Part shown: in pieces, positions 3,788-51,893 of the stretch
Position numbering within the stretch: the stretch's first letter is position 1
Layout: every line of letters begins with the position of its first letter
Assembly (NCBI GenBank): GCA_003971905.1
Contig: RSEE01000038.1
Span: 248,001 to 312,000 of the forward strand
Length of the DNA stretch: 64,000 nucleotides
Direction: 5' to 3'
Source: Moniliella sp. 'wahieum'
Lineage: Eukaryota > Basidiomycota > Moniliellomycetes > Moniliellales > Moniliellaceae
Translations under genes and position numbers: made by a program
The notes under the pieces: model-generated
The model's database searches: none
Seen by the model: only the letters and a program-made list of their open reading frames with translations
What the model was told of the DNA's origin: nothing

Positions 3788-5915
3788 GCCACAGTATGTG
3801 TCGTGACTGTTGTAGGTTGGAAGGGCAGAAGGTTGAGAAGAAGGGGAAGAAGGACAGAAGAAGATGGATGCGAAGGAAAAGGAGAGCACGCGGCGCCAGA
3901 GGTGGATCTTCCAGTTAAATATGCACTTGTGCTTTTGTATATGGCGACAGGAGAGGAATTCGTTCTGAAACAAGAAGCCCCTCGCTCCACGGTTTGCCCA
4001 TAGCCGACGGAGAGGAGAGTGTCTCTCAATGGGCATCCGATGGGCGCAAGGGTTGGTTATCTGTTTTGAGACTGTTCCTGGGGATCATATATCCTAGCTG
4101 CTCGTTTTGCATCAGTACTCTGTTGGCTGTGCGTGCTCGGCGGCGAAGATGGTGATGCCGGTGCGCCAGCCAAGCTTCAAGCTTCAGGCCTCAGGCCTCA
4201 GGACCAATGTCCGTGACGGGAGAAGGGGGCGCAGTGGGCAGTGGAGAAGAGATTGAATAGCGAAACGAGACTGGGCTGGTGGCGCCGGTGGCGCCCCGAG
4301 GCGGGATTTGCCCCACATTTTTGTCCTCCCGACGCAATTGCGCAACCGGCTGACATGTGACACTTTTTAATCTCAAGCTCGTCATTGGCGTGATGATCGA
4401 TGATTCAGGCGAACCCCCCGCCCGCCCGCCATCAAGTTAGGCTCATCGCTGAGGAAATGCAATTGCCCGTACTTCCAATGGCACACAGTGAGTACTCAGT
4501 CTGAGTTGCAGCAAGCCTCCCTAATTAACCTATTGACGGTCTGAGTGGGCGACACGGGCAGTGTGGAGGAGGGGTCATCCGGTCATCGTGATCGATGACC
4601 TCAATGACCCGGCGCTTGACAGCACGTCCTCTTTTTTATTCACACAAGCACGTCTTTTCATCTCTCAACACAGAGAACCTCTCTCTGGTGTGTGTGGCAT
4701 CCGTCGGGACCTGACGCTTGCGTCCGGCATCTGGGTATAGGCGCTCGATTCACGTGCGGATGCTGACCAAACGCTGGATTGGAGAGGGTGGTGCAGAGCG
4801 GCCACCTCTTCGACTCGGGGGGGGGGCGGGTTGCTGTTGCGCCACCCGACAGGCACAACCATACGGAAGCTGGCGCCTGGCCAGTGTGGGAGGAGGGACT
4901 TCTCCTTCCCGGCACCATGCCTCGGTCACTCCGTAGCTCGGATAACGCCTCCCCCGTACTCAGGTACTCGCTGACGGCAAAAACAGTGCAATATAAACAC
5001 AACCCGCTTTCTCCACTTTCTTCGCCCGCTGTTGGGTGTTTTCTTCTTTTGTACCTCCCCCTCTGCTCCTTCCAGATGCGATGCTGGCCCACAGAGTGTA
5101 CAGTATATCTATACTGTTCTCCTTGTGCCTGCCCACATATGCGGCATTCGCCCCCTCATCTATCGTCCTCGACCTGCTATTTTTGGCCTGTTTTGCCTCC
5201 ACTACTACCTGCTTTTGCTTGCGTGCTTTTGGCGCGTGCTGCGTGGTCCTCTGATACATGCCAATGCATGACCAACCATTGGATGTCCCTGCTGAGAAGC
5301 TGAGGGCCTCAGTCTAAGGCTGAGAGTGTGTGACTGAATAGACAGATAGATAGATAATACGAGAGAGAGAGAGCCTCGAGATTCAAGCCCCTCTCGAAAG
5401 TCCACCTCCTACGCGTTCTCCGTTCTTCCTTCCCACAGTTCGTACGTTGCAGGGGCCGAGATCACAGAGATGGGCCCTCTGTACATCTGCATCAACGGAC
5501 GAACGGAAGGACGAATGAAAGATGATGGGAGGACATGTGGCACATGGTAAGGCAAAAACTCCTGAAAGCAAAAACATATAGCATATATACTTCTAGGACA
5601 ACGAACGTTGGGGTTGCAAATAAGCCGTCCCGAACAAGGGAACGTAGGTGATGAGGTAGGGAAGTCGCGGAAGTAGGAGAGGTAAGGGAGGTACTAGGTA
5701 GGAGAGAAAAATAGGTAGGGAACCATGGGAGAAAAAAAGAAAAAGAGGTCCAAGGCGGCACCTAGCACGAGCAAAAGAGCAAGAGCAAGAGCAAGAACGA
5801 CGGAGGGTATCCGCGGTCCTTGTTGTTTTGTTGTACTTTCGTTTGGGTTCCCGGAGGAGGTTACAACGCCGACGCATCATTCTGCGCTTCCGCCGACGGG
5901 TATAGGCACTCTGCA
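3788..5915. other. Upstream and intergenic region, no supported gene
   Basis: This holds the promoter side of the UNC93-like gene and the 3' side of the GAF-domain gene. It contains the heptamer array at 4171..4204, palindromic TGATCGATGA motifs near 4392 and 4590, a pyrimidine-rich stretch at 4990-5070 and short GATA and GA microsatellites near 5341-5372. No open frame resembles a known protein. Confidence 0.5.
4171..4204. repeat. Heptamer array that switches core AGCT to GGCC in phase
   Basis: Four 7-base units are followed by a partial fifth. The first two contain AAGCTT and the next two AGGCCT, each joined by a single C. The 7-base phase continues across the change, so a palindromic hexamer was exchanged for another palindromic hexamer. 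Confidence 0.85.
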
Positions 5916-12300: not shown

Positions 12301-12776
12301 CTGACGCACCTCTGCTGTGGAGAGTGCAGTAGCCCCCTCATCTTTTGTGAGCAAAAAAGGCTATTTATACAGGCACTATAGTAACTAGTGACGCGAGTGA
12401 CGCTCGTATTAGGCAGCACCAATTAAGTTTAAGGAAATCCGGTCTCAGGCCGAGCTGTGGGATACTGAGTACTGAGGACACGTGGCCACATATTAGGATC
12501 GTAGGTACCTTTCGTTTGAGCCACTGCGCGGTCTTGTGCATCAGAAGATGCAGCAAAACCGTGTCTACCATACGAACCACTGAGATCTGAGACCAGAGGA
12601 AATGTTATGCGCCTCTCCGAAGCACATCGTTTTCGCCCGCCGCACCCCCCCCCCCCCCCGCGTGGCGCCACTGCCAAGCTGGAGGCTTCAATAAGTGAAA
12701 AGCTTCCACTTTATCCATGTGTCGATCACTTCATCAACAACATGGACGAAATGCGTCTATTGAGAGGTACGTCTGG

Positions 12777-13125: not shown

Positions 13126-13164
13126 TTGAACGTTCGTTGAACGTTCATTAATGATTAATGATTG
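13126..13164. repeat. Heptamer array, ACGT and TTAA cores
   Basis: Units with AACGTT pass into units with ATTAAT. TGAACGTTCA at 13138..13147 is a 10-base perfect palindrome and overlaps TCATTAATGA at 13145..13154. Confidence 0.75.
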
Positions 13165-13614
13165 TTATTTAATGATTCGCAGGGAGGTGTGCGTCTGCGA
13201 TGGCCCGATTGAATACATCAAGGGGCCGGTGGCAAGGAGAGGGACGATGGCCGCTGGGCGCTGGCCGTTGAAAGAAAGTATCACCCGTCGTTGCGCTGAT
13301 CTCGGGTTGCCAGAGTGTCAGCTTCTCAAAGGCAGCCGCAATTTAAGTGAGAATCTCGTTCCACCCCAGGGGGTCATGACCCAACCCGCCACACTGCCCC
13401 CATGCCGCGCTGGCCGGCATCGCCCCATAGCAGCCAGCCGCGCATTTGATGCATGATAGACAGGGCCAGGTGGAGCAATTATTGCCTCTTCTGCCTTGGG
13501 GCGCCGACGAGCACTTTCTACCGCCTCTTCGCCTCTTGCATCTTCCTCTTCTTGGCCTTTGGGTCAAAACTCCGTCGCTTCCCTCCCTCCCACCACCCCC
13601 ACCACCCCACCGCC

Positions 13615-15516
13615 ATGACCGACTACCTCGACGACCCGCAAGCTAACCCTGACTTCCCCATCCCGGCCGTTCCTAGCGGCCAAATCAGCCCTTCCACTGG
13701 CCACCCACCTGCAGTGGCCGCCTCGGACCTCGCCAGCACCCACTTTGACATTGCCATCGTAGGAGCTGGTGTGGTTGGTGCTTCGCTCGCCTACGCACTC
13801 GGCCGTAGCGGTCGCACCGTGGCCGTGGTCGAACGGGACTGGAGCGAGCCCGATCGGATTGTAGGGGAGCTGTTGCAACCCGGGGGCGTGCGCGCACTCG
13901 CGTGCCTCGATTTGCTGGACACCATGGAAGGAATCGAAGCTGTTCCCGTCACCGGATACCAAGTGTTCAATGGCGAGGAGAGCGTCCATATCCCGTACCC
14001 TTCCGCTGACGCCGTCGCGAACCTCAAGCCCCACACGCGTGGGTTGGTCGGAAAGGATGGTCGATTGGAAGGCCGTGCGTTCCACCACGGTCGGTTCATC
14101 CAGAAACTCCGCGCTAAGGCATTGGCTCAAGAGAACGTCACGTGTATCGAGGCTACTGTGCGCGACTTGGAAGAGGACCCGGCGTTGGGCCATGTGACAG
14201 GGCTGAATGCGGTGCGCAAGACCGGCCCTTCCAAGACGGAAGAACAGCTGGCCATCCGGGCCGATATGACCATCGTGGCCGATGGCATCTTTAGCAAGTT
14301 CCGCGGGGCCTATGGTACCACCATCAAACCTCAATTGCGCAGCCACTTTGTCGGGCTCGAGTTGGACCACGCGCCCATGCCTCAACCGCACCACGGCCAC
14401 GTCGTTCTGGCGCCCAGTGGACCCGTTCTGCTCTATCAAATCGCCGAATCCAAGCCTGCCGCCGATGGCACCATCGCTGTCCACTCCACTCGAATCTTGA
14501 TCGATTTCCCGGGCGACCAAAAGCCCAGTGCGACCAAGGGCGATTTGCCCCAGTACATTCGTCATCACGTCGCGCCCTACCTACCTACCGGTCTCGACCA
14601 AGCTCTGCTCAAAGAACTCGATCTGATCGAGCAGGGTAAAGGATCCAATCGGCTGCGCACCATGCCCAACTCTTTCCTTCCCCCGAGCGTGCAAGGTCAG
14701 TCCCGTTTCCGCCGTGGCTGCGTCGTGGTAGGGGATGCGATGAACATGCGCCACCCCTTGACCGGTGGCGGTATGACTGTCGCATTCTGGGACGTGGTGC
14801 TGCTCACCAACATTCTCAATGGCGGCGCCTGGTACCCCGGCAAGGGCAGCCCACTCGAGCGCAAACCCGGTAAGCTGGATCTTCGCCGTTGGGATCCTCA
14901 AGTCCGCCCGGCTTTGCTCCAGTGGCACTGGGACCGTAAAAATTTGGCCAGCGTGATCAACGTACTGGCTATCGCGCTCTACAGTCTCTTTGGCGCGGCC
15001 GACGATAACTTGCGCGTCCTGCGCGAAGGCTGCTTCAGGTACTTTGAGCGGGGGGGTAGCTACGTTGACGGTCCGGTCCGTCTCTTGTCGGGCACCACGC
15101 CTTCGCCTGCACTGCTCTTTTACCATTTCTTCAACGTGGCTCTCTACAGCATCTATGCCCTCTTCTTCCTCCCGCACCGGCACGTGGAACGGGGCAAGAC
15201 GGTGGTGCGCAAAGCTACCTTGGCTGAGTACCCTGCCTTATTCCTGCGCAGCATCATGGTTCTCTACACGGCTACCACCGTCTTTTTGCCCATTGTCTTT
15301 ACCGAGCTCAGAATGAACCGACCCGACTTTTCGCATACCCCGCGCAAGTCGGGTGGGTTTGTTCCTAAAGACGCTACGGGTCCCTGCACCTTTGCTCGGT
15401 TCTTGATCTTGGTCTGCTTGGCTATCATTACCTCGGCCTGGACCATCTTTAACCCCGATCGTCGTCCTGAGCTCTTTGCTTCCTCCCGCCTTAACATAAC
15501 GGTGGCCAGCGCATAA
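13615..15516 (+). CDS. ERG1: Squalene epoxidase (squalene monooxygenase)
   Basis: FAD-dependent monooxygenase of the ER that converts squalene to 2,3-oxidosqualene in ergosterol synthesis; it is the allylamine antifungal target. The single intact exon encodes 633 residues, longer than the roughly 500 of yeast. The start at 13615 follows a CCACC-rich leader; an in-frame upstream ATG at 13453 would add 54 poorly conserved residues and is not preferred. Visible motifs: the dinucleotide-binding GAGVVG (residues 50-55), RIVGELLQPGG (81-91), the ADGIFSKFR loop near 225, and the FAD-contact GDAMNMRHPLTGGG (373-386). Hydrophobic segments near the C-terminus (YSIYALFFL, TTVFLPIVF, FLILVCLAIITSAW) fit ER membrane anchoring. 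No frame errors occur over 1.9 kb, in contrast with many neighbours. Confidence 0.97.
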   Translation: MTDYLDDPQANPDFPIPAVPSGQISPSTGHPPAVAASDLASTHFDIAIVGAGVVGASLAYALGRSGRTVAVVERDWSEPDRIVGELLQPGGVRALACLDLLDTMEGIEAVPVTGYQVFNGEESVHIPYPSADAVANLKPHTRGLVGKDGRLEGRAFHHGRFIQKLRAKALAQENVTCIEATVRDLEEDPALGHVTGLNAVRKTGPSKTEEQLAIRADMTIVADGIFSKFRGAYGTTIKPQLRSHFVGLELDHAPMPQPHHGHVVLAPSGPVLLYQIAESKPAADGTIAVHSTRILIDFPGDQKPSATKGDLPQYIRHHVAPYLPTGLDQALLKELDLIEQGKGSNRLRTMPNSFLPPSVQGQSRFRRGCVVVGDAMNMRHPLTGGGMTVAFWDVVLLTNILNGGAWYPGKGSPLERKPGKLDLRRWDPQVRPALLQWHWDRKNLASVINVLAIALYSLFGAADDNLRVLREGCFRYFERGGSYVDGPVRLLSGTTPSPALLFYHFFNVALYSIYALFFLPHRHVERGKTVVRKATLAEYPALFLRSIMVLYTATTVFLPIVFTELRMNRPDFSHTPRKSGGFVPKDATGPCTFARFLILVCLAIITSAWTIFNPDRRPELFASSRLNITVASA

Positions 15517-20978: not shown

Positions 20979-21868
20979 AAGTGTTACACGGATTACAGTT
21001 CGGTCGTATTACATGCCGTTATAGTCGTCAACATGAAGAAGGAAGATCTCGAAAGAAATGCACATGTTGCTGCATTCATAGTAGAAGTTTATGAATGGAG
21101 GGGAAAGTGAGACGAAATACAGCAGTGTGATTCTTTTTCCGCGAAAGGAGGCAATGGGGAGGAGGAGGAGGATGAAGAAGGGAAAGGGAAAAAAGGGGAA
21201 GAGGAGACGACATGTCATACCATACTATCGGCCTATCTACTGAGGATGGTGGGAAATAATGCGGCATTATGAATGAGGATGAAGATCCTTTCAGTGTACA
21301 GCAATAGAATGTGACCCACTTGGCCACCTTAATTTCGTAGACCACAGCCATTTTCTTTTCAAGCGGAAGGGGCGGGCGTCGAGCAGCTGGTTTCCTCCTT
21401 GAGAGGGAAAAGGCGGAGAGACAAGGGATGTATGTCCCAACAGATGTGACAGGTTGTTGGACCCGTGGTCCCGTACTTAGGCCAAGGTGCCTCATCACCC
21501 TTCACCCCTGATTTGTCCTCCCAAGCCTCCACGTGATACTCAGGCTTGTTTGAAACCCCTGTCTCTAGGTTGGCACAAGGCTTAGACCCGAACCACACCA
21601 CCATCGCGATTGCATTGCTCTACATCTCCAGAGGTTCTTCACCCAATCCCTTGGGTTCCTCCGGTCTTACACGGGTCAAACGTGACCGTACTGACCTTCA
21701 GCGTATATATCTTTCGTCTTTACTGTTCGATAGCATCCCCTCTCTTCGTGTGCATCTGGACCACCGCACCATCCATCCTCCATTGAGAATATGAGACACA
21801 TGTCGCCGCAGAATATACATACGTGTGTTGTGCACGTTTTCATATCGATTACATTGCTTGCTGCCGGC

Positions 21869-21935: not shown

Positions 21936-22106
21936 GCTCTCGCCTACACAATAAATCGCATTTGCGTCTCTGCGAGCCGGTCTACTCTCAAAAGTTTTTT
22001 CACCCGGTTGTGGCTCTCTCAGTGTGTTAAACTGCATGAAGCAGGCTGAAGCTTGGGGCTTGTGGAGGTTGTGGAGGTTGGACGCTGGAGCGTTTATTAT
22101 GGCAGG

Positions 22107-22162
22107 TGACCGGTGAAGCTTGAAGCTTGAAGCTTGAAGCTTGGAGCTTGGTACCTGAAAAA
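22107..22162. repeat. Longest phase-perfect heptamer array
   Basis: Eight 7-base units are in perfect register. Cores are CCGG, then AGCT four times, then a TGG-AGCT variant, a TGG-TACC variant and a decayed unit. The exact 7-base phase through three different core types is the clearest single example of the family. Confidence 0.9.
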
Positions 22163-23187
22163 CGTTGCTGAGATGTCGACGCTAAAAGAGTCAATTAGGT
22201 ATCGGCTATTATATATGCATCTCAGGGACTATCTTACGGCAAACAAGACTGTTGAATGTATGATGTGGAACAAGGCAGACAGAGTGTGACATGTGACTAC
22301 GCCAGGAAAGACATCATCGGTGATCGATAAGGCCCAAGCCCCCTGCCCCACCCCCCTAAGGCGTAACCCGTAAGACCTAAGGAAAGGGACAAATCAGAGA
22401 AACAGCGACGAGAACGGTCATGACACGGAGCGAAGACCTGGTGGGTCAGTCTGGAGGGCGTCCGGTCGCTCCGTGCGGCATTGATGGTTACGGTCACCGA
22501 CGGTCATCGGTCATATCGAAGTCTATAGTCAGCACGGCGGAGGACGATGGAGTAACTAGTAAGGCGAATGACTCTTGTGCATGACCCTCCGACCCCTAGT
22601 TCCTCAGGCCTGCGACATCTGAGATGAGCAGAGATCCTCGAAGTCGAGAGGGAGTGCGCACAGCGCGCGAGTGTGGAGCCTATTACGTATGCGAATTAAG
22701 CGAGCGTCACCGGCTCACCGACTCACCGAACAACCTGAAGTCTGTGCGGGGGAATCTGACAGCACTATCTCCAAGCCCAGGCTTGCTGTGGCTGGCGATA
22801 ATTGATAAGGCTTGGCGCTGGCGTGCGCTTGCCGGACGTGTTTGAGTACGTACGTACTGTGTTCCTTGGTATACTTTAAGCGGGCTTGCCAAGACGCACG
22901 TCTCAACTACATCGATCATGCATCAGGTCGATCAGGGCTCCAGCGCGCTCCAGCCCCAGGAGGCCCCAGGGCTTCAGGTTCCTCAGCGCCTCAGCGTCCA
23001 GCCTCAGGGCATCGTTGTGCCGAGTGCGTCCTCGTGCGCGGCGGGGCAGACGGCGGAAATGGACGTCCGGATTTGCCGAACGGCGTTTGCACCGCGTGAC
23101 AAAATTTTTATGCCGGCACCGGGCCAGTGCATAACCCGCGGCCTCATGTATCGGCGCACTATCAGCCAGGCACCGATCCAACGGAGA

Positions 23188-26204: not shown

Positions 26205-29200
26205 TTAAGATACACAGAGCAGAGGCGATTGGCGACTTTGCGCTGAACGGCGAACGGCGCACGGCGAACGGCGCACCGCAAACGATGTTAGGTGTGGAAA
26301 CAAAATGTTGAGCGCTATCCCCGGCACTTCAACCCCGACGGCGTACGGGAGGGAGGAGGGAGACGTGCGCACACCCAGGACCGAGGACACAGGACCCGTC
26401 GAAGGCGACAGCTCGGTCCCGAGCGCGTGATGATCCCATCCTGGCCCCATCCCCGAAGCAAGGGTATGACATGGCGAGCGGGAGTAGGAGCCCGTGGTAG
26501 TGGTGGCGGTGAGGCAAGTCGACTGGGACACACCCGAGCCCAACAGCGGGGTCGACCGCAGGCTGCCACCCGAGACCGATCCCGAGGCCGATCCCGGGGC
26601 CGACCCTAATCCCAATAACGTAGATCCCAACGTTGAGCTTAGCCCGAGCCCAGACCCCGACAGCGACCCGCAGGCCGACGCCGACGGAAGAGAAGCCGCC
26701 GACCCTTCGGGCGACAAAGCCCGAGCGCGACGGCGGAACAAAGAAGCCGGATGCGCACGGAAACTGAACCCGGCCACATAGTTCCGTAGTTGTTATACTC
26801 GGGTCTTCGTCCGCATCGGCAAACTGACTCTCTCGGTCCTCCGACCTACGTTGGCCGTATTCCTCTGCATCGTCAAACGCGCCACTGTCCAGAGGCGGGG
26901 GCGAAGCTGGGGCGTACCACCGCCCCGTAGGCGATATGTAGGATCGAGGTGGGAATGGGATCGTAGCCGGAGGGGTGGATGTACGTGTAGGTGAGAGTGC
27001 GGGTTGGGTCGTGGTGATGTCGAACAGGGGAGGCGAGCCAGAAGCAGGTTCCCACACGGGCAATGGTGATGTCAGTGCTGGGGATGGCGGAGCAGAGCAG
27101 GGGTCAGGACGAGAAGCAGAGGACTCCAGGGAGCGGCGTGAAGTTTCTCCCTGATCTGGCACAGGCGTAGCGCATGAGGCCTTGAGTGAACGAGGCGTGG
27201 TGTGGAGGGGGTTGCAGTAGGCAGCAGCTCTTGGGCATCCTGCGTCTTCTCGGGGAAAGGTCGCAACGAGCGGGCCGAGTGGACATGGCGCATAATGTGC
27301 AATTTGCGCCTCCGACCACCCTTTTCCACCAGAGGGGGATCCTGGGTCGTGGTCGGATCTCCAATATGGCCGTGGAAGGAAGACTTGGGCGACGGCTGAG
27401 CGGGCGTGTCGACCGACGTTCGACGTACGCGCCCAGCAAGCCGAAGAGACGAGTTGGAGTTGGGTCGAGTTAACTGTCGGAGACGTGCAGGAATCAAAGA
27501 GGCAAGGGACCGCTTGGGATCGTTCTTGCTGTCGGAATGGGATGAACTGGTGATGGAACAGGGGGTGGTGGTGATCGCACTTTCATCCGAGAGAGACGAG
27601 GCGGAACTTGGGTCGGAGCCGATGGGGGCGGTTTCCAACTGGGCGAAGGTTGTGTGGAGGGTTGTGTAGATGCGGTGGAAGAGTGGTACAGTTACCATCA
27701 GGTGAGAGAGAGAGCGGCAGTCATCGCGTTGGGAAGACAAAGGCAGTAGTGGGGACGGACTAGAAGTACGAATGGGGTCGGGGAAAAGGGACTGGAGAGC
27801 CGGTCGTCCCCCTTTCCCACGCGAAGGAAGCGACTCGAATGGTCGTGAAGAAGTGGTGTCATTGCCGGAGACTGCTGTACCCAAAGAGATGGTATTCGGC
27901 TCGTCTACCGTGAGCGTGGTGGCAGTGCGTCTAGCACCTGGGTCGCATCTGCTGGTCCCACTGATGCGGACGTAGCAGAACGTCCTTTACTGTACGACCG
28001 CATCCGGACCAGTTGGCTCTTGACCAACGTGCCCAACTGAATGGACCCTTGTGATTCCGCCCGGGAGCGTGAGCCGGTTGGAATGTCCATGTTTTTCCAA
28101 GCCGGGCTGGAGTTCAAGCCCAAAGATAGGGTAGGACGGTGGTTTGACCATTGAAGCTCAACGCGCGCAGCTTGCTTGTCGACACGCTCTTTTTCCCAAT
28201 CCGCAGAGAAGGGTGGGCCGCCTTGATCGCCTGGTGGGGGGCGGCGCGTCGGAGGTGTAAATGGGTACATACGGATCAAGTCCCGGGTCGGTGGCGTCGA
28301 GCCAAATGGTAGGATTGGCCATACCAGAAGTAATCCAAGGATGGGATTTGATCTGGTCAAGTGGCATGCGAGCGTCCGGATCCTTTTCCAGCAACCCATC
28401 AAGCAGGGTCCAAAGCGCACGCGCATCTTGACCCAATCTCCCTGGTCCACATCCTCCTCCTCATTCTCCAACGCTTGCATCACCGTTGGCGACGGAGGGA
28501 AGCCCCAGGGTCGGTCCTGTAGTTGCGCGTAGCGGCTGATGCTGATGGAGGACACGCGTTCTTGTTCTTCAACGGCCGATTGGACCCGGCTCGCATCCCA
28601 TCTGCGTGCGCGGGGCCCCACAAGTACCTGATCGGCTCCCATGGTGGCAGGAATGGCATAATCGTACCATGGAATCACTGAAAACAGCGCAAACTCACTG
28701 GCCGAGTCAAAGGGGAGGGTAGCAAAGAGCAAGCAGTACAACGTCACGCCCAAGGCCCAAATATCGATCGCCTCGCTGATTCGAGGCGGCTGTTCCCGGC
28801 AGCTTGGCCTGGGTTCGGACTCGGGAGGAGCAAGGGCACCCAAAGCATGGCACTGTTGCGTGCTCAATGGACACGCATCAGTCAAGCACAGTTCCGGTGC
28901 CAAAAATGCAGGCGTGCCCGCGGTGCGCGACAATTCTTGCTGGTCAGCCGCATCGAGATCGGCTGTGTGTGTTGACACTGGGTTGCTCACCAAAAGAGGC
29001 TCGGCCATCTCGTCGTACTCTAGTGACTGCCCACCGCGCTGAAACAGGGGCGCACTAAAGTGACTCACACCAAAGTCAGAGATCTTGACGTGAGTACGAC
29101 GGGCGTCGGTCCAGAGTAGATTGGCTGGCTTGAGGTCCCGGTGGATGATACCGTTGTAATGCAGGTACTGCAGCCCACACACCACATCCCTCCCGATCTG

Positions 29201-29889
29201 CCGCACCGTTTCCACTGGCAAAAGGGGGTGGCCAGTCGTCTCACGCCAGCACACTTCGCCGCCCGATAAGTATTCCATCACTTTTTTCAGTAGTGGTATT
29301 GTTGAACGAAAAGGAAGATGTTACGTTGCAACAACGGTCAGTACTTCTTCAATTGAAACCCACCCTAGGAAGGGGACACGTACCCATGAAGATTTTCTTG
29401 CTCTGGGGATCGTCCATCACTTCGAGTAGACGGACGATGAATTGGCTGGAACACTTGCGAAGAATAGCTAGTTCGCGAAGGACTTTATCGTCCGTCGCGC
29501 GAGGAGCAGGGGCAGGGGTGGGCAGAGCAGGCAGCGGAGAGGGGCCCCGGGCGTACGGCTGACGGGGAGACGACGTAGGACGTGGTCGCTGCCAAGACGG
29601 CGGGGGGAGGAACGGTTGACAATCTTGATGGCAGCGGTTGTGCCGGTGGTGGTGTCGCGGGCCATGCGGACGCGACCATGGACGCCCCGCCCAGTTCGGA
29701 GAGAAGGAGGTACTGGTTGACCATCCGATGGCCCGATGTCGGATGGGACCCCATGGCAATCGACGAGGTCTCCCGCACGCGGGCCGGGGGAGGGGAGGGG
29801 GCGCGCTCAGGCGGAGCGACATGGGCCGATTGAGGCGTACGGAGGAGATGCTGCGGGAGGAGGTGGACGGGCAGAAGGAGGGGAATCAA
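26205..29889 (-). CDS. SAK1/CaMKK-type protein kinase (Snf1-activating family)
   Basis: Ser/Thr kinase related to fungal Sak1/Tos3/Elm1 and Ssp1, which phosphorylate the activation loop of Snf1/AMPK. From the start at 29889, VNQYLLLSELG opens the kinase fold near 29720. AAIKIVNR holds the ATP-binding Lys, then VLRELAILRKCSSQFIVRLL and DDPQSKKIFM. Next come VMEYLSGGEVCW (near 29280), the catalytic HRDLKPANLLW (29112-29146), SDFGVSHFS (near 29065-29090), TAGTPAFLAPELC (near 28890-28930) and IDIWALGVTLYCLLFA (near 28720-28765). The substrate-side lobe ends near 28310 (SHPWIT). A long Ser/Pro/Thr-rich tail continues in changing frames to about 26205, more than half of the protein. Splicing and frame errors break the 5' half and the tail, so the tail's end is uncertain. 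Confidence 0.83.
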
Positions 29890-30490
29890 ATGCGGCTTGG
29901 GGCCAGGCCCACTGCGTGGGGCAGACCGTGCACGGTCTCTTGCACGGTGTGTGGGTTGGCGTTGAGCAGTCTAGCTGACCAGTGAAAAAGATCAAGACGT
30001 GCGAGCTGAGCGGCAGAGCGCTGCTGCGCTGATCGCAGCATGCCATGCATATGCCACAGACATCACCGCTGGGCCTGACAAAGCCGAGCCGCAGAACACA
30101 AAAGCGCCAGGGCACTCCTGTGCCTGGGCAAGGGGAGCCGGGGCAGCAGCCTGGACGCTATAGTACGTTGGATGTTGGACGGGAGGCAGCCGACGCATGA
30201 TGCAGAATGCATGATGCAAGGTGCTGCCTCAGACTCAGATGTGAGTACTGAGTCTCAGACCGCAGCCCCCCCCCCGCAGGCCGCAGAGCACAGTGGGCGG
30301 GGCGGGCGCCAGGGCTGCTGCGCCAGTCGGCACAAGCGCCATGCAGCGTGCCGCCTGCAGGCCACCCAGCGTCCAACGCACCCCATGCCCCACACTGCCG
30401 GCACGCGCCCTCGGCCGACGTTCACACCCTCCCACGCCCCTGGCCCGAGGCGCTGGCCTGAGCGCCTGAGTGCCTCAACTCCCCGACATG

Positions 30491-30546
30491 CTGACATGTC
30501 ACATGTCACTGTCACATGTCACCGGTCACCGGTCACCGCCGCAGAT
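30491..30546. repeat. Heptamer array, CATG then CCGG cores
   Basis: TCACATG units change to TCACCGG units in 7-base register apart from one 6-base unit. TGACATGTCA at 30492 is a perfect 10-base palindrome. Confidence 0.85.
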
Positions 30547-30649
30547 CTCACCCCTGCCTGAAACCCCGCCAGGGCGCGGGTGGGTGCGCCACCACTTCCA
30601 AATTAGCGCCAGACCACACCGCCCTCCTCCAGTCCCGCCGAGAGCGACT

Positions 30650-30692
30650 TGAGGCCTGACGCCTGACGCCTGACGCGTGACGCGTGGCGTAT
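30650..30692. repeat. Heptamer array, GGCC to CGCC to CGCG
   Basis: Six units start at 30650 with cores GGCC, CGCC, CGCC, CGCG and CGCG, then TGG-CGTA. The non-palindromic CGCC sits between two palindromic cores and looks like a one-step intermediate. Confidence 0.85.
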
Positions 30693-31190
30693 GCAATGAT
30701 CGAGACAGGCGACAGGCGACCCTTGACGATCGCGTGACCGTGCGCGTGACTAGTGACTACTGGGCAACCCCACCAGCAAAGCGTTGGCCTGCGCTAGCTC
30801 TGTGCCTCTGTTTACACGTTACCAATGTTTACCGGATAGACTAAGGCAACTAGGGTCCACACTGCTTACATATCGATCGCCCCCCCTTCGCTCGTTTCTT
30901 TTCAGCCGCGCAAGAATCCCCAGATCCCCCCCCATCGACCATCGACCATCCTTTTGACCAACCAACCCGTTTCCCTATCGCTGGGCTTACAAGCCCACAG
31001 CAATACCTCTTTTGGGCCTCTTCACATGTCACATGTCGCCCCCCCCTTATTCCTTTCCCACAACAAGCCAGCAAAACCAGGCTACTCCCTCAAGGGGGTT
31101 TGGTAAGTCCTAAAGTCGTAACTGAGTACTACGGCCCGCCCCTCAAGCTCCTTAAGCAAGGTGCCGCCACCGAGGACCATAATTTTCTTA

Positions 31191-31215
31191 GTAACTAGTA
31201 ACTAGTAACTAGTAG
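31191..31215. repeat. ACTAGT heptamers with A spacer
   Basis: Three GTAACTA units: the palindrome ACTAGT joined by a single A instead of the usual G or C. The palindrome is kept while the spacer differs. Confidence 0.75.
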
Positions 31216-31276
31216 TTCATCATGCAGCGTATGCATAACGAGAAGACCACCGGGCCTACGGCCCGGTCTGCTGTGT

Positions 31277-31357
31277 CGCCACCTTAGCCACCGTTCCCCC
31301 GTCGCCACCTTAGCCACGTTCCCCTGGCCCATCATCGCCACCGTAGCCACCGTTCCA
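31277..31357. repeat. GCCACC/TTAGCCAC minisatellite
   Basis: Three imperfect copies of a unit of about 22-26 bases built from CGCCACC, TTAGCCAC and GTTCC, starting at 31277, 31303 and 31336. It is followed by GGTGGC-rich simple sequence to about 31450. Confidence 0.7.
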
Positions 31358-31621
31358 AGCTGGAACCCATCCACGCTGGAAAACAATACCACCGATACGT
31401 GCTGGCTGGCGTGGCTGGCGGCGCCCCCGGTGGCTGCGCCACCGGTGGCTTACGCAATGCTGATGTAAAACAGTGGTGCACACCCCGTTCGGGATTCTAA
31501 TATAACATTGAGATGGTAAGGGGCAGCGGAGGTGCGGTCTGGTGTGGTGGTGTGGTGGCGGGCATGTTTTGTTTGGTGTCACATGGCAGGTCTAAGTCGA
31601 CCTGATGCCCTTACCAGTAGA

Positions 31622-31910
31622 CCCTGAGGCTCAGGCTGGGGGGGGGTGACGCGGAAGCGCTGAGGGGAACCGGTGACCTGGGACACCTTTGCCTGTGGAT
31701 CATCGACAGTCATAGCCCCTGAGGCCTGAGGCCCCGATTACAGATCTGAGAGGGCCTAAGAATCCTGCCGGCCTGAGGTCTGCCTGAGGTGAGTGACTAG
31801 TATAGTGACTAATAGTGACTAGCCTGATGCTCAGGCCCAGGCCTGAGGCCTGACTAGCTGACTAGTGAGACCGGTGACCTGGCCTGGAAGCGCGCGCTCC
31901 CCGTGATCGC
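31622..31910. repeat. Mixed heptamer cluster (GGCC, CTAG, CCGG)
   Basis: Within 290 bases, AGGCCT, ACTAGT, ACCGGT and AGATCT palindromes recur with one-base G or C spacers, including TGACTAGTGA at 31859..31868. No coding potential. Confidence 0.75.
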
Positions 31911-32819
31911 GTGACCGGTCCCGGTCCTGCCCTTAGAACTCCCATCCTTTTTGTCGGTTTGTCTGCAGCTGCAGACTAGCTAGCTGATATATATTTTTGG
32001 TAAAAGACTTCAAGCTTCACTACCTTACCGATCACATTTCCGAGTTAGTTGATGTCATTTTTTGTCTTTGTGTGTATACGGGTGTGGGTGGGGTTTTTTT
32101 TGGCAAAGCGCCTCGTTTCGCGAATATACTTGCGGTGTCATGCATGTCAGCCCGACTTGTTACGCTCTACGGTGGACCCCAGATGGTCCATTCAAGCGAA
32201 GGCCCGCCGGCTCCGCACATGCCCAGTAGAGCGTGCTCCGCAGGCCAACCAAGGGTGATGATGGTTGGTTAAATTAGGTACGGTGGCCCGAAGGGCCACA
32301 TATGCATCCGCGCGAGACAATAGTCGCCCCCCACCTAAGTCCAAGTCGGCTGGCCAAACTAGGCCACGGAGCTTCCAGTGTCTTTGCGACGACTGTCGCA
32401 TCTGTCCCCGTTTCTCCTTTTCCTTTCTCGGTCGCGCCTGCGGCGACCAACCCCTCTTTTGACGTGTCTTCCTTTCTACACACCTCTCTTGTATCCGTTT
32501 CCCTTTTGATCTTGCCTGTACCACTGGTTGATCGGGATCATTTCCCCGACCTTCCATTCTCTCATCATCTACCGTCTCCACGGTCACCCCCTCCCGCTAT
32601 ACTGTCCGACTACTCCTGTCCGTTTTCCAGCCAATTGATCCAGTACAGGCGGCCTCCTCTCCTCTTAGCTCCCGCCTCCTCTGCCGACCTCGTCCTCCAG
32701 CACTCCATCAGTCCAGGGCGCGAGCCCTCCTTCAGCCGCGTCTCGATTTCCAGTCTCTGTCCGGTCTCAGTTAAGGCAGTGTTTGACCGCCACTGCCTCC
32801 TTTCGTCCCTAAGTCCCGG

Positions 32820-33230
32820 AGGCTTCAGACACGTTACTACACACAGCCAAGCCGGTGCAGACGCAGCCTTGTCATAAAAGTGCAGCCGCCCTACCAAGAC
32901 CTCTCTTCGTCCCTATAGCTCCGCTCGAATCCACCAACTATAGCTCAAGCCCGAAACTACCGTGAGTCAACCTACCGTCTCCCAAGGGACGTACCCCCAA
33001 ACCCCAGGAGAGCCCCCTGGCGGGGCCCGCCCCGTAACATGGCTACTGCCCTCAAGGGCTGAACCTCGGATCGGACGAAGCTTGTGCGACTGAATCACCC
33101 AGAAGACTCGTGCGAAGACTGGTGCGATCAGCGCCGTGAAGGCAGGAAAGAGCTGGTGACTCAGGATCAGCACGTCCCTATAGGATAGTTGTCAAAACCA
33201 TTGTAGTTCTTGACCATCTCGATCATCAGA
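32820..33230 (+). mobile_element. Relict dispersed element, family 1, copy A
   Basis: It shares three collinear blocks with 48960-49370: GGCTTCAGACACG near 32820, CTACCGTGAGTC near 32957 with a C-rich stretch after it, and TTGTAGTTCTT near 33201. Spacings between blocks are about 132 and 249 bases here against 128 and 245 in the other copy. It is well diverged and broken, so old. The class cannot be told from these remnants. Confidence 0.55.
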
Positions 33231-33779
33231 TAACCCACCACTCTACCCATATCCCGCTGACCTTCCCTAGACCATCCCACCCTCCTGAGAATTTTTCAGA
33301 CTATAGCCTCGATCTTGGACCCTTATCAGGCGCTCAGGCATCCGTCCAAGTCACAGTAGAGACCTCCTCTGACGATCAGACCTCAGCGAGGCCTTCTTAT
33401 AGGCTGAGAGCTGAGGAACCCTGCTAAACCACTTTTACACTGCGCGGTATAGTATCATAGGCAGTTCATCGCGTGAATCCAAAACGTCCCTTCGGTAGGC
33501 CTTGTTCAGAGTCGATTAATCCGTCCTTAATCCAGGAGATCTGCAATCTTATTGGAGAGTTCTATTCGGAGATCAGCTTCTGGGTTACTTGATTCGAAGG
33601 CGCGGCAAGTGTGTGGGGCCCATTGATCCTGTTGAACCGTTTGAAACTGTAACGTTGGTGTCCACATGTAAGTGTTGATGGCGTCGTAGGAGAATGGAGA
33701 ATGTGGTTCTAGGGGAAGGTGCAAGAGGCTCTACATAAGCGGTATGGTCTAATGTGGCCTAAGAGAATACGAACAATGA

Positions 33780-33960
33780 GGTATAATCTCTATATTGTAA
33801 CCATGTCATTGACAGTGTTTACTAAAGCTGGGACAAAGTAAACCGACCTACTCATCCGGAGCGTGTGTTGCTTTTTGTTGTTGGCGCCAAAAAACCGTTT
33901 AGAGAACCAGGGAATTCGCCAGCAGATCATGGATGCGGGCGCAAAGGAACCGACGGAGAA
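33780..33960 (-). mobile_element. Relict dispersed element, family 2, copy A
   Basis: Read on the minus strand it matches 49660-49860 in order: a GATCT-GCTGGCGA block, TTTGGCGCCAACAAC, a CCGGATGAG block, TTTGTCCCA and a TGGTTACAA block. The TGGCGCCAAC motif recalls primer-binding sites of LTR elements, but no reverse transcriptase or LTR pair was seen, so the family is not fixed. It is an old, broken fossil. Confidence 0.55.
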
Positions 33961-35221
33961 GAAATGGATGTAATAGCGCACAGGTAGAGAGAAATAAGAG
34001 GCCACAAATAAGTCAAAAAGTAGAAGTGACTGGCCTTTAGCCCCCCCCTTCCCATAAGGAAAGTGGCGGAAGGAACTTGTTGCGATATGCACGGGCCATT
34101 ACACGGTGTGGTCTTCATGATATTATACAGAGAGAGACGTTGATGGTCGCACTACAGTATGGAGAAAGAGACAGTAGATGGGAGGGCTTTTTGCTCGGAA
34201 AACAGGAGTATAGCATTATACGAAAATGGCGGATATGAAAAGGATCCACAGCAGGCGCTCGTTGGTGTTCAACTCCCCCGCACGTATCGATTCGTTTGCG
34301 AAGTGTTGACTGTGATCCTCCGGCTCCCAGCCGGTAGACCAAGTTCGCTTCGGTTCCATCGGCTTCCACGCTGCAGGTGTCCCAGCATGTCACTGTCCCT
34401 TGCCCAGCATTCTATACTGTCCTCTGTTTGAACTGGCCCTGTGCCTAGTCCGGCCTCCCATATAGATGCCCCTGTACCCAGACCCAACTCTAGTTCTAAT
34501 CCATCGCCTTCTCCTCATCCTTCTACCCGTCCGGCTCCCTATAGACTAACAAGAAGCCCTCATTTTTCCTCCATTTCTGGGTCATACTATATTACCAAAA
34601 CTTACCGCTGAGTGTTGTCATTTATTGTTTCTTTAGTGAGCTACTGTACAGAGTTCCTCTGAGCTTTCCCTCTCCCCCGTCAGATCGATCCCGTCTCTTC
34701 TTTTCCTTTGTTCTCTTCTCCACCGTATATCGCACCTACTATATATTTTTGAAGAATTGACAATTGGCTCGTTTTAGTTCTCTACAAAAAAGGTGATGCC
34801 GTCTAATTGTGATACTAAAAGGAGACCTCCTTCTCCCGACACCCACCGCTTTCTTCATCTCTACCAAGTTCTTCATTCTTCCGAGCCTCCCCGTCCCAGC
34901 GACTTAGTGCCGTGTGCATACTTGCACTTACTCTGCAGAGTGCTATCACACCTATATATGTTTTCTAGTCTCTGCTATGGTACGCTTATCATTCTGGGCC
35001 CGTCTTGATGCCGAAGTGCTGTGTGCGTGAGCCGGGCGGTATCACAGCAAGGATGGGATGTGGACCCATCTTCGTCGGTCTGCTCTGGAGATCTGAAGTG
35101 GCTAGTTACAAGTCACACGGGGACTGTGGTACAGACCCGGGCGGTGGAGGAGGAGAGTGGATGAGAGGTACTTTTCCCCGTTTTCTTCCTCTTGGGAGCT
35201 TGACGCTGGAATGTCTTCTGC

Positions 35222-35280
35222 ACGTGATCGATGACCGACCTGATCGGTGCCCATCGATGATCGATCATCATGCATCACAG
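35222..35280. repeat. TCGA/TGCA palindrome cluster
   Basis: TGATCGA units in both orientations, forming TGATCGATCA, pass into TCATGCA units. Confidence 0.7.
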
Positions 35281-35848
35281 ACCAATGCATGTGGGTCGCG
35301 GGGCGCACGGGCGCACGGGGCACTGTTGATGCGCCACCCGGAATCGCAAGGGAACGCAGCGATAGGCACTGGGCGCTCGGGGGCAGCCACGCCGACGCAC
35401 TGGCGCCCACGCCGAGGGGGCGGTGGCGCGAGGGCGTAGCACGGGGGCAGCGCCCAAGCATGTGGATGCCGTCGAGGCCCGACGCCGCAGGCAGGAGCGC
35501 ATGTGCTGGAGCATGCGTGCTGCGGGCCGTCGAGTGGCATCCGCGTGCCCTGCAGTGCCCGGCCGGGGGTGGGCCAGTGCTGTCCCGTGCAGCCCACGCC
35601 ATCCCACGCCATGCAGCCCATCGGGGCGGGCCTCGGCACCGGCGCGGTGGCGCTGGCTGGGCGCGGGGGCTGCTTGCGACGCCCATCATTAACTACTCGG
35701 AGCTCATGTCACCGGTCACCTCTCCCGCCTCATGCATCATGCCTGCACGTGGCCGGCAGCTGCCTAGGTACGCAGCCCTGCTGCTCCCTCCCTCCCACCA
35801 TCGACTCCAGCTCTCCCTCCCCGGCTCCACCACCCTCTCCGCCGACTG

Positions 35849-39410: not shown

Positions 39411-39764
39411 TGCGCGCGCCCCCAATTGGTGTTCTGTTCATACACGTTTTGCGCCAACTCGATCTAGGCGCTCACGTCCACAGTCACGGCTTCGCCCATT
39501 TACCTCTCTCCATTCTGTGATTGATGCTCCCAATCTGAGAAGTTTCAGATCGAACCCCTTAGGCCTTGACCCTTAACGTTTAACCCCGTTGACTGTAGGT
39601 GGGGTAGGATCGATCGTTTCTGGCAGCTCGATCGTCTTTGTCGTCTCTTCTTCCAACCCTTTCTCTCCCCCACTTCATCCCTCTAGGTTGAACCCTCTGG
39701 CATGTGAGTGTTATCGGTAACTTCCAATAGAATACTGTCGAAAATGGCGAGTGGCATTCAATAT

Positions 39765-40487
39765 TCACGCTCTCGCACCCAACGCAACGGACGTGGCATC
39801 CCCCCGAACCTCGTGCAGGGCCCACCTCCCATCCACCTTAGCCCTCCGATCTGGCAGAAACATCTCACAGTCAGCACCACCCAAATAACGAATCAAAGGA
39901 CCCAGGGATCAGAGAACCAGAGGACCAAAGGACCACAGGACCTAGGCACCAAACAATCGACAGCAACGTACCTTGGGCATATCAAAGTGCTCCGTAAGCG
40001 AAGCAAGGTGATTGTTGAATGCTTCCACCCGATCTTTGTGGGAAAACGTAGCTTCCTTGGCCACCCGCTGTCCCAACCGACGCAATCGAGCTTCTTCAAA
40101 CTTGGCCTCGGACTTGGTGCGGTACCGGCGCCGGTCTTGCCGTTCCTCCCGTTCCTCTTGCTTCTCGCTCGGGGAGGGGGGAGGTGGGAAGAACCAGTGG
40201 GGCTATCGCGCAGAGCTGGTTCATGCTCGGTACCTGTTCCAGCAGCAGGATCGGAGGAACGGTGGGAAGAATGGGAAGACCGGTGGGACTGGTGGGAGCG
40301 GGATCCGTCCTTGGACTTGCGCTCGTCTTCCCCCGCCGCACGGTGGGATCGCTTCTTATGCGACTTGGATGTGGACGTGGCTTGGACTTGGACTTGGATT
40401 TGGACTTGGATGCGCCGCCCTTGATCCGGAGCGAGCCACCAAGAGGCACGTCGTACCGTCTGAGTCGTCAACCGCAGCGGGCGGCAT
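39765..40487 (-). CDS. FAM32A-like nuclear protein
   Basis: Small basic protein of the FAM32A family, found in animals and fungi; the human protein associates with the catalytic spliceosome. From the start at 40487 (MPPAAVDDSDG), a missing base near 40455 leads into the family N-terminus YDVPLGGSLRIKGG. A KSKS-rich basic stretch and a Ser/His/Arg-rich linker follow. The conserved C-terminal helix reads KFEEARLRRLGQRVAKEATF, then HKDRVEAFNNHLASLTEHFD and MPK near 39983. A GTACGT donor follows at about 39975, and a last short exon may end at 39765; that exon is the weakest part. It lies downstream of MTR3 on the same strand. Confidence 0.72.
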
Positions 40488-48029: not shown

Positions 48030-48062
48030 TGAAGCTTCATCTGAAGCTTGAAGCTTGAGCCC
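48030..48062. repeat. AGCT heptamers with TGAAGCTTCA palindrome
   Basis: TGAAGCTTCA at 48030..48039, then two in-phase TGAAGCT units from 48042. Confidence 0.8.
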
Positions 48063-48959
48063 ACTGGACCTTGCGCTCACCCTTGCTCCGTGTTTGTCTA
48101 TAGGGGAGTCGCGCTAGTGTTGGCACTGTGATGAGCGCAGTGAGTCCCCCGGTGATCCGTGTTCTGATACGATACCTATTCCATCGGTTGTATTACACCG
48201 TGGGTTTTTTGTGCTGGTGTGTGCCGGCCCTCCTCTTATGTTATCAACCAATTTGTTTTCTTCCGACCAAACCTAATCAACACCCTAATCGTAGCTGGAC
48301 ATCCCCTTTATTCTTGTCACCCTTACGAATCTACGACTCTCGCGTCGTCGCTTACACTCTCCAAAAAAAGGTGCGGATATAGTACGCTATTCTTTCTGCT
48401 ATATTCTTACAGGCATGTGTCGTCCTGGAGTCATTATAGGACTGAGCGCTGTGAGTCCGCGTGTATTTTCTCCTGGCTTCCCTCTCGGGAACACAGTCTC
48501 CCTTGTGTGGTGACTGTACTCCCAAGTTTTTGCGTGTCCATCCTTCTCCGTTTTACCCTATATAATACCGTGAGTTGTTTCCCTTTTGAACCCTGCCTAC
48601 TACAAGCAATGGTTCGTGGGTCTCCTCCACGTTCCATTGTTGTCTTCACCTTCCATACTTCAATCCATTGGCGGCGCCATCTTCTTCAATCTATACGGTA
48701 CAAACCGAATTTCTTCTCTTTGTTACCTCCCCTGCGCTTCCTTTATTCTTCGCCTCTCTCTTCATGTTTTCCCATCTCTTTTAGCTGCAGCTTTTTCCAG
48801 CTGCTAAGTGTTCGGCTTTTCCCGTATTCAATCCGTGGAGTTTTCAGTCCTTACTTTTTTTCTGCGTCTCAGCTTCAATGTTCCCGGTTCCCGCTCTAGA
48901 CTTCCAGGTTTGGGCAACCTTGTCCTCGGCTGCCACTTTTCCCATGGCCGAGTGGGAAC

Positions 48960-49870: not shown

Positions 49871-50260
49871 CGTTTGAGAAGAGTCATTTCCTTTCGGGCT
49901 CGTTTGTCATGGTTTGGCTGACCTCACTCCCATTTCCAATTTCTTCGTCCCGACCGTCTCACCGGTCACCCCTTCCCAGTTCTTCTCCGCTTCGCAACAT
50001 GCCATCTGCTATTGTTCTTTCCCAGGAACGAGGAACGATTCTTATACTGTCCCTTGGCCGAGTCCCCACTCTGGTCTACCTCCTCGCCTTTTCTCCGACT
50101 GTGACACACCCGATCGCACACATTGCACGGTTCTGTAATAGTTGCCACTGCATTATGTAGGAACTAGGCAAAAATAGGTTGTGTCATATGTCGTTCGTGC
50201 AGGTGGATACTACGCCCAACATGGATAGAGCCCGGGGCAAAGGGACAGGGAAAAGAACGA

Positions 50261-50294
50261 TGAGATCGATGAGATCTGAGATCTGAGAGATGAG
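50261..50294. repeat. GATC-core heptamer array
   Basis: A 9-base TGAGATCGA step is followed by two TGAGATC units and two TGAGAGA variants in phase. Confidence 0.85.
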
Positions 50295-50729: not shown

Positions 50730-50801
50730 TGAGATCGATGATCGATGAAGTTTGAAGGTTGAAGCTTGAAGGTTGAAGCTTGAAGCTTGAAGGTTGAGAG
50801 G
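50730..50801. repeat. Ten-unit heptamer array, TCGA then AGCT/AGGT
   Basis: After a 9-base step, units at 50739, 50746, 50753, 50760, 50767, 50774, 50781, 50788 and 50795 keep strict 7-base phase. Cores are TCGA, AGTT, AGGT, AGCT, AGGT, AGCT, AGCT, AGGT and a decayed unit. Alternation of AGCT and AGGT suggests slippage of a mixed pair. Confidence 0.9.
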
Positions 50802-51262: not shown

Positions 51263-51772
51263 CTAGAATCCTTTGTGACAAATGTCGGCATCTCTATGTT
51301 CCTTGTTCCTCTTGAAGCTTGAACGTCAAACACCCTTCACAAGCTTCACACCACCACGAAATGGATCACCGGCACAGGAACAGCACAAGAGGTGGCCAGT
51401 ACTAGTACCATCCGTGTAGCATCCTTACTTTTGTGACTCTTGTCGGCACATCCTACTCGCGCGTGATGACGATGACATGCGATGCATGATGATGAATATT
51501 TAGAACGTTTCGTGCACCCCAACTTCTACGGAAAACAACCTGTTAAATCATGGCTTCCCGAAGGCTCAACGTACGTTCAACACGTTCAACAAACGTTCAA
51601 CGACTCAGAAGTGCACCAGTCACAGGGTCACCGCGGTCATACTCAGGGCGAAGCAGTGGAGAAGGTCACTACTGTGGTGTGGGAGGGTGGGGTGAAACCG
51701 GAGAAAGGCGATGAAATTGATGAAAGACCGAAGATCCATGATGAATCAGCGATCAGATCTCAGAATACACGA

Positions 51773-51872: not shown

Positions 51873-51893
51873 GGTTACCGGTTACCGGTTACC
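51873..51893. repeat. GGTTACC triple repeat
   Basis: Three exact 7-base units: the palindrome ACCGGT with a T spacer. Confidence 0.85.

Follow-up and report, generated by a model that had tools for sequence, protein, structure and literature searches.

The Locus and Its Second Copy

The window, i.e., the whole stretch of 64,000 nucleotides analysed here, is part of contig 38 of an assembly which comprises 69.49 Mb in 223 contigs. It contains a squalene epoxidase gene at positions 13453–15516 (Pfam SE). In a protein search the nearest named proteins belonged to Ustilaginomycotina, e.g., Sporisorium and Tilletiaria, with an identity of roughly 51 to 58%, and four proteins of the source 'lgn' showed 64 to 70% identity. 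Besides this gene the window carries many short arrays of 7-bp units, examples of which are collected in Table 1.

With 2 kb of the window as query, a second copy of the region was found on contig 9 at 90% identity. This copy was compared to the window over five adjacent stretches, and 1384 mismatches were found in 43,642 aligned window bases (3.2%). Contig 9 may represent the other haplotype or a homeolog, and the assembly may contain two haplotypes or homeologs. For comparison beyond the locus a sample of twenty 10-kb stretches (L009–L028, 200 kb) was placed blind to repeat content. Eight further loci (L001–L008) were fetched for their AGCT arrays, i.e., they are not random.

Several larger insertions distinguish the two copies. 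Opposite window positions 48554–48565, contig 9 carries a 4.25-kb insertion with CACTA-type inverted ends (CACTACCGACCCC) which the window lacks; its longest open stretch is 182 codons, and its flanks suggest a 3-bp duplication. A 219-bp insertion at window positions 21455–21673 is missing from contig 9 and looks like a solo LTR; its last 173 bp gave 38 further matches at 94–97% among 40 scored genome-wide. A presence/absence difference of 294 bp (33454–33748) is flanked by an exact GCGGTAT direct repeat, which is not centred on a TNA triplet. Related insertions of roughly 275–294 bp are located in opposite copies, one at window positions 31239–31512 and one in contig 9 opposite position 32223. 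Their identity over 173 bp is 76%, and by eye a GC-rich inverted repeat is seen close to one end.

Table 1: Units and arrays of the window and their state in the contig 9 copy. Lower case letters denote flanks or filler.
Position	Feature	Sequence or cores	Contig 9 copy
4175..4202	Mixed array	AGCT then GGCC GGCC; first core templated by flank ct, last by gg	
12387..12402	9-bp class	AGTGACG cg AGTGACG	
12464..12477	Type A (indel 12466)	AC TGA GT AC TGA GG	AC TGA GG
13136..13163	Mixed array (indel 13152)	gt ACGT TTAA TTAA tt	Without one TTAA unit
22105..22159	Array	GG TGA CCGG TGA (AGCT TGA)x3 AGCT TGG AGCT TGG TACC TGA	
22110..22137	28 bp, four 7-bp units		Missing; single site GG TGA AG
22982..22995	8-bp class (6-bp repeat, 2-base inverted filler)	CTCAGC gc CTCAGC	
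30242..30253	Type B	TGA GT AC TGA GT	TGA GT
30510..30537	Mixed array	CATG then CCGG CCGG; first core templated by flank tg, last by cc	
30671..30686	TGACGCG array	CGCG	
31189..31214	TAA-CTAG array, spacer A	CTAG	
32008..32021	Type A (indel 32010), no tandem duplication	CT TCA AG CT TCA CT	CT TCA CT
35266..35279	Type A (indel 35268)	CA TCA TG CA TCA CA	CA TCA CA
39756..39769	Type A (indel 39758)	AT TCA AT AT TCA CG	AT TCA CG
48042..48058	TGAAGCT array		One unit more
50259..50274	9-bp class	GATGAGA tc GATGAGA	Without 9 bp
50746..50797	TGAAGCT array with mutated units		
51751..51764	Type B (indel 51753)	GA TCA GA TC TCA GA	GA TCA GA
51873..51893	TTA-CCGG array		Length differs

Excess of Palindromic Period-7 Repeats

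Runs with an exact period of 7 and a length of 14 bp or more were counted in window and sample, with 20 order-4 Markov shuffles of the window alone as background. The window contains 54 such runs as compared to a shuffle mean of 4.8. In 30 of these the unit is a palindromic hexamer plus one base, for which the shuffle mean is 0.3, and in the sample 59 of 136 runs are of this kind. This confirms the original prediction that such units exceed a proper background. The further expectation that palindromic units would outnumber non-palindromic ones has to be qualified. The palindromic excess holds, but the 24 non-palindromic period-7 runs of the window also exceed the shuffles (about 4.5), and the sample has 77 of them. 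Period 8, counted for comparison, gave 16 window runs, 2 of which had a palindromic hexamer. The outer pair of the hexamer was A..T in all 30 palindromic runs of the window, with 13 of the 16 possible cores represented, and in 84 of the 89 palindromic runs of window and sample together.

Between TGA triplets all 16 cores were found in window and sample. In the same sequences the four enclosed bases were palindromic in 219 of 409 cases of TGA-N4-TGA and 31 of 69 of TAA-N4-TAA, as compared to 32 of 354 for TGG-N4-TGG. The remaining triplets listed yielded 1 to 9%, with the exception of ATG (15%, core CATG in 44 of 57), for which overlap with TGA-TGCA arrays would account. When gaps of 0 to 20 bases between TGA triplets were compared, the palindrome excess occurred at four bases and at eleven (two units, 40/205); gaps of 6 to 9 bases showed a 2- to 4-fold excess, but on 2 to 9 cases. 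A separate observation concerns inverted spacers: in TGA-N4-TCA, where self-complementary sites were scored on both strands, N4 was palindromic in 40 of 122 cases in the window and L009–L028, an arrangement resembling a flipped loop base.

Units Consist of a TNA Triplet and a Core Copied from Its Flanks

The repeats are a genome-wide feature, and they follow a sharper rule: a unit consists of a TNA triplet plus a 4-base core which is copied from the flanks. With primes denoting complements, a site ab-TNA-cd is found as abTNA-b'a'-abTNA-cd (type A) or as ab-TNAcd-d'c'-TNAcd (type B). The core is b'a'ab, taken from the two bases left of the triplet, or cdd'c', taken from the two bases right of it. 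The near-constant outer pair A..T follows from this composition of the unit, and the palindrome is a by-product, since the two bases next to TNA are copied into the core once in inverted and once in direct orientation. The idea that many different heptamers obey one rule is thus correct as to the fixed A..T outer pair; it fails in admitting any palindrome, as the flanks set the core. A literature search turned up no published repeat family following this rule, as had been supposed.

The period continues two bases leftward or two bases rightward of the units. Isolated units with equal spacers matched the left flank only in 53 cases, the right flank only in 63, both in 15 and neither in 28; for TGA alone the respective numbers were 40, 43, 13, and 22. 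Left and right matches are therefore anticorrelated, as the A/B model requires. A 14-bp unit with both 7-mer copies complete was rejected because of this anticorrelation and because exact 14-bp runs are scarce (23, with 105 runs at 10 bp and 72 at 12 bp). Among 306 units the two spacers were identical in 250 and complementary in 31, and on these counts a hAT-like odd-centred hairpin at N was rejected as well. A joint with both flanks inverted was rare: apart from 62 units for which A and B would serve as well, it was seen in 8, versus a shuffle mean of 0.8.

Among 116 isolated one-sided units, 99 had G or C as the base N, as compared to 14806 of 19731 for TNA in general on both strands. Outside TNA the base composition was near flat, as for a weakly specific transposon target. 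The templating pair ab was not neutral: CT (2.1 times), TG, TC, GT, and CA were above expectation, and TT (2 versus 8.0 expected, 0.25 times) and TA (0 versus 5.1 expected) were low.

The influence of the flanks was examined genome-wide with the fixed pattern TC-TGA-....-TGA-AC, which leaves sixteen possible cores and gave 115 matches. Among the 100 of these which were listed, 33 had the left-templated core GATC, 38 the right-templated core ACGT, 18 the plain duplication ACTC, and none the core GAGT, in which both are swapped. The other twelve cores accounted for 11 in all, including the palindromes GCGC (2) and AATT (0). The reversed pattern had 13 matches in all. A similar asymmetry was seen for the 12-mer AGTGACTAGTGA, which occurs 1952 times in the genome, and its reversal, which occurs 17 times.

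In the array at 22105–22159 the first core, CCGG, is templated by the left flank GG and the AGCT cores by the right flank AG. This array is itself polymorphic between the copies: the units which it has in excess of contig 9 are one CCGG (left GG) and three AGCT (right AG). More generally, a site whose flanks are re-used at each event should yield arrays of at most two cores with the left-templated one first. Among 11 all-palindromic mixed arrays with two cores, the first core was as predicted from the left flank in 10, the last core as predicted from the right flank in 7, and both were in 7. Six of these arrays came from window and sample (left 5, right 4) and five from other loci (left 5, right 3); judged by position, two or three contig 9 arrays among them duplicate window arrays, which leaves about eight independent ones. 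Uniform arrays could stem from repeated events or from slippage.

Subtraction of 29 untemplated units from the 250 palindromic ones leaves 221 A/B units in the 264 kb of window and sample. This is about 0.84 per kb and would extrapolate to some 58,000 if the whole assembly were alike. None of the 87 window units lies inside the 5,546 bp of coding sequence in four spans with Pfam matches (7.5 expected; two kinase-like spans without a Pfam match were left out), which is expected of frameshifting insertions.

Unit Differences between the Two Copies

Between the aligned copies there were 13 indels of 5 bp, 15 of 6 bp, 12 of 7 bp, 3 of 8 bp, 12 of 9 bp, and 6 of 10 bp. Nine of the twelve 7-bp indels fit the A/B rule exactly (12466, 13152, 25772, 30242, 32010, 35268, 39758, 48042, and 51753) with a single TNA site in the other allele, although the single site at 13152 is an odd palindrome and 48042 lies inside an array. 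Two more (23200 and 30985) fit with one substitution, and one (33770) does not fit. The 7-bp differences are probably gains rather than losses. Counted by units, of which one locus can hold several, 72 rule-fitting units in the aligned window divide into 24 identical in contig 9, 20 absent from it and the rest diverged, and of 50 such units in contig 9, 24 are identical in the window and 5 absent.

Other small palindromic insertions lie outside the TNA rule, at window position 51403 and in contig 9 opposite position 48554. An example of such a 6-bp palindromic insertion is AGTAC changed to AGTACTAGTAC.

Related Classes of 8 and 9 bp

Rarer classes of 8 and 9 bp have 6 or 7 bp repeated, up to the whole abTNAcd, around a two-base inverted filler. 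In 7-bp direct repeats with a gap of two bases, the two gap bases repeated an end in inverted form in 19 of 29 cases when the repeat was centred on TNA versus 27 of 469 otherwise. For 6-bp repeats with a two-base gap the two possible TNA positions gave 17 of 30 and 7 of 25 versus 33 of 469 and 43 of 474. Fillers of three or four bases in 7-bp repeats showed no such signal (1 of 7 and 1 of 9 TNA-centred cases fit). One-base fillers fit in 12 of 17 cases versus 70 of 277, several of them being also readable as 6-bp repeats with a two-base filler. The near-constant filler of two bases in combination with a repeat of 5, 6 or 7 bp suggests a stagger of 7 bp and hairpins opened two bases in.

A Possible Origin from Hairpin Ends

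On a slight balance of probability we take the heptamers for scars of single templated insertions at TNA sites, i.e., for P-nucleotide footprints of a transposase-type enzyme. An enzyme of the cut-and-paste transposase kind would make cuts staggered by 7 bp in the two strands, with TNA in the middle, and insertion of its element would duplicate the 7-bp site. When the element is excised or aborted, the ends on both flanks would be closed as blunt hairpins, and nicking of these two bases from the tip would leave 4-base self-complementary overhangs (b'a'ab and cdd'c'). End joining might then seal the two overhangs as a mismatched 4-base bubble, from which replication or repair would retain one strand; A and B would thus be about equally frequent, each with exactly 7 bp added. 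If one end is filled in and the other loses one base or none, the product would belong to the 8- or 9-bp class. The element itself would be rare, unrecognised or gone already. Two features of such footprints are present, namely 5 to 7 bp including TNA which are directly repeated and polymorphic with an empty site, and a P-nucleotide-like two-base inverted filler in A and B types and in the 8-bp class.

Several findings count against this origin. The model does not predict the bias of the templating pair, footprints vastly outnumber any element, 7-bp indels are no commoner than those of 5, 6, and 9 bp, and the units absent from the opposite copy are unevenly distributed (20 of 72 for the window, 5 of 50 for contig 9). 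Plain TNA-centred 7-bp duplications, of which a 7-bp-duplicating element should leave some, occurred at 28 positions versus 27.9 expected. A 7-bp target-site duplication alone was rejected for this reason and was dropped as support.

Searches for the element gave little. None of the 12 breaks of more than 45 bp between the aligned copies had an exact 7-bp nnTNAnn duplication. A scan of about 0.34 Mb for inverted repeats had no hits with 12-base ends, and with 8-base ends 14 hits versus 1.9 expected, 12 of which look like arrays, and no convincing element. The two other hits, L026 5901–7433 and the contig 9 string 27626–35704, are stretches bounded by TNA-centred 7-mers with 8-base near-inverted ends and are not arrays; chance alone would give about two. 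The boundaries of repeat families in the sample offered nothing usable. Whole-genome domain searches for hAT (PF05699 and PF14372), KDZ, and piggyBac gave no match, with the control genomes silent too, and those for MULE and DDE_Tnp_4 gave none either. Among seven transposase models only Transposase_21 matched, once over and once below the cut-off, the controls being silent for five of the seven. The 4.25-kb CACTA-type element was considered as the culprit and rejected, its flanks looking by eye like a 3-bp and not a 7-bp duplication. A low-copy element is possible, as the element scans covered about 0.34 Mb of 69.5 Mb.

Other Explanations

The main rival, a real contender though an unlikely one, is a U-turn of a repair or replication polymerase. 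Here a 3' end would stall past TNA, snap back over a 3-base TNA loop, copy two bases, and return, so that no transposon is needed and TNA is a preference for the loop or the pause. The order abTNA b'a' abTNA is exactly what forward, backward and forward copying would give. This explanation also agrees with the failure to find an element by inverted-repeat scans or in the large breaks between the copies, with the lack of enrichment of plain TNA-centred duplications, and with the influence of the identity of the templating pair. Snap-back synthesis, however, normally yields variable lengths, whereas the copied stretch is near-constant, being mostly two bases and hardly three or four (1 of 7 and 1 of 9). 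Other loop sizes would be required for the 8- and 9-bp classes, and a strict T and A amid nearly any flanks is unlike a pause site.

Improbable as the source of the units is slippage expansion of short tandem repeats, helped by palindromic units which fold into hairpins. Long uniform arrays do exist, and three AAGCTT-G units, counted as (GAAGCTT)x3, have 959 matches genome-wide. Some array differences are plain gain or loss of a unit (48042), and slippage may well add to the growth of arrays. The reversal (TTCGAAG)x3, whose unit is built in the same manner from a palindromic hexamer and one base and is equally foldable but has the outer pair T..A, has 0 matches, and the first and last cores of arrays track the two flanks. 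As judged by eye, 5 of the 12 7-bp indels (30242, 32010, 35268, 39758, and 51753) consist of 5 repeated bp and two inverted bases; those at 12466 and 25772 are among the ones also readable as tandem duplications. In a microsatellite a new copy is an exact duplicate of the adjacent unit, which holds neither for these five polymorphic insertions nor for the flank-templated cores.

Finally, a repeat family conserved for its folded structure, as first proposed to account for the very large palindromic excess, is most improbable and disfavoured by untemplated palindromic cores at background level (GCGC 2 and AATT 0 in the 100 of 115 flank-test matches listed), by cores predicted from flanks and not from pairing, and by the single TNA in the other copy at polymorphic sites. 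A cruciform or hairpin function is disfavoured since untemplated palindromes are at background in the pattern examined. The proposed analogy to CNG hairpin arrays likewise found no support, the palindrome arising from the manner in which a unit is born.

Meaning and Comparison to Known Systems

If the heptamers are indeed scars of a transposase-type enzyme, palindromic repeats would become a readable record of DNA breakage and joining, in which each unit gives the position of the cut, the distance from the tip at which the hairpin was opened, and the strand which survived. It is conceivable, though we would rather doubt it than assert it, that a hairpin-forming recombinase not described so far, which cuts with a TNA-centred stagger of 7 bp, is rewriting this fungal nuclear genome, possibly without leaving an element. 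By extrapolation it would have left tens of thousands of scars, sufficient to shape intergenic sequence, and its rate could be read from haplotype differences. Should such an enzyme be found, its target specificity (nnTNAnn, 7 bp) would be without counterpart in the literature search. A caution to be drawn is that palindromic repeat families can emerge without selection on structure.

The RAG/Transib system closes the flanking DNA as blunt hairpins and gives even-centred P nucleotides. Both of these traits resemble the proposed scars; the 5-bp duplication and the specific signal sequences of RAG/Transib are different.

As far as described in the accessible parts of the papers cited below, none of the systems compared matches the combination of features found here. 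The transposon Galileo makes 7-bp target duplications with the symmetric consensus GTANTAC (PMC4168063), so that it and the P superfamily share with our sites a 7-bp duplication with a symmetric target. The centre, however, is ANT there and TNA here, the surrounding composition here is near flat without GTANTAC, and hairpin P-nucleotide footprints are not described in the accessible part of PMC4168063. Very short or palindromic, optional, and intergenic sequences are also known from fungal mitochondria as ultra-short mobile palindromes (MUSE1 of Podospora, double hairpins of Allomyces, and A/T palindromes of Fusarium; PMC7218506). According to what is accessible of that source these carry their own sequence, whereas the insertions of the present genome reproduce bases of their target, and they occur in a 69.5-Mb assembly with ordinary genes and not in a mitochondrial genome.

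The closest likeness in the joint itself is to hAT elements, in which, in the accessible parts of the reports, short inverted copies of the flank at the joint are put down to hairpin-closed ends and end joining. TcBuster leaves hairpin P-nucleotide footprints, and its target nnnTAnnn (8-bp duplication; PMC3499496) is, as given there, likewise centred between T and A. Ac/Ds leaves P-nucleotide excision footprints from hairpin ends in Candida albicans, the palindromes being of variable length, with the complement of the element-bordering base at their centre (PMC5873905). Compared to what these sources give, the joints of the present genome differ in having 7 bp, an even centre between two bases and mostly two copied bases. 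The Ac/Ds footprints were studied in 128 revertants according to the part of PMC5873905 considered here, whereas a single genome of Moniliella seems to hold tens of thousands of natural footprints.
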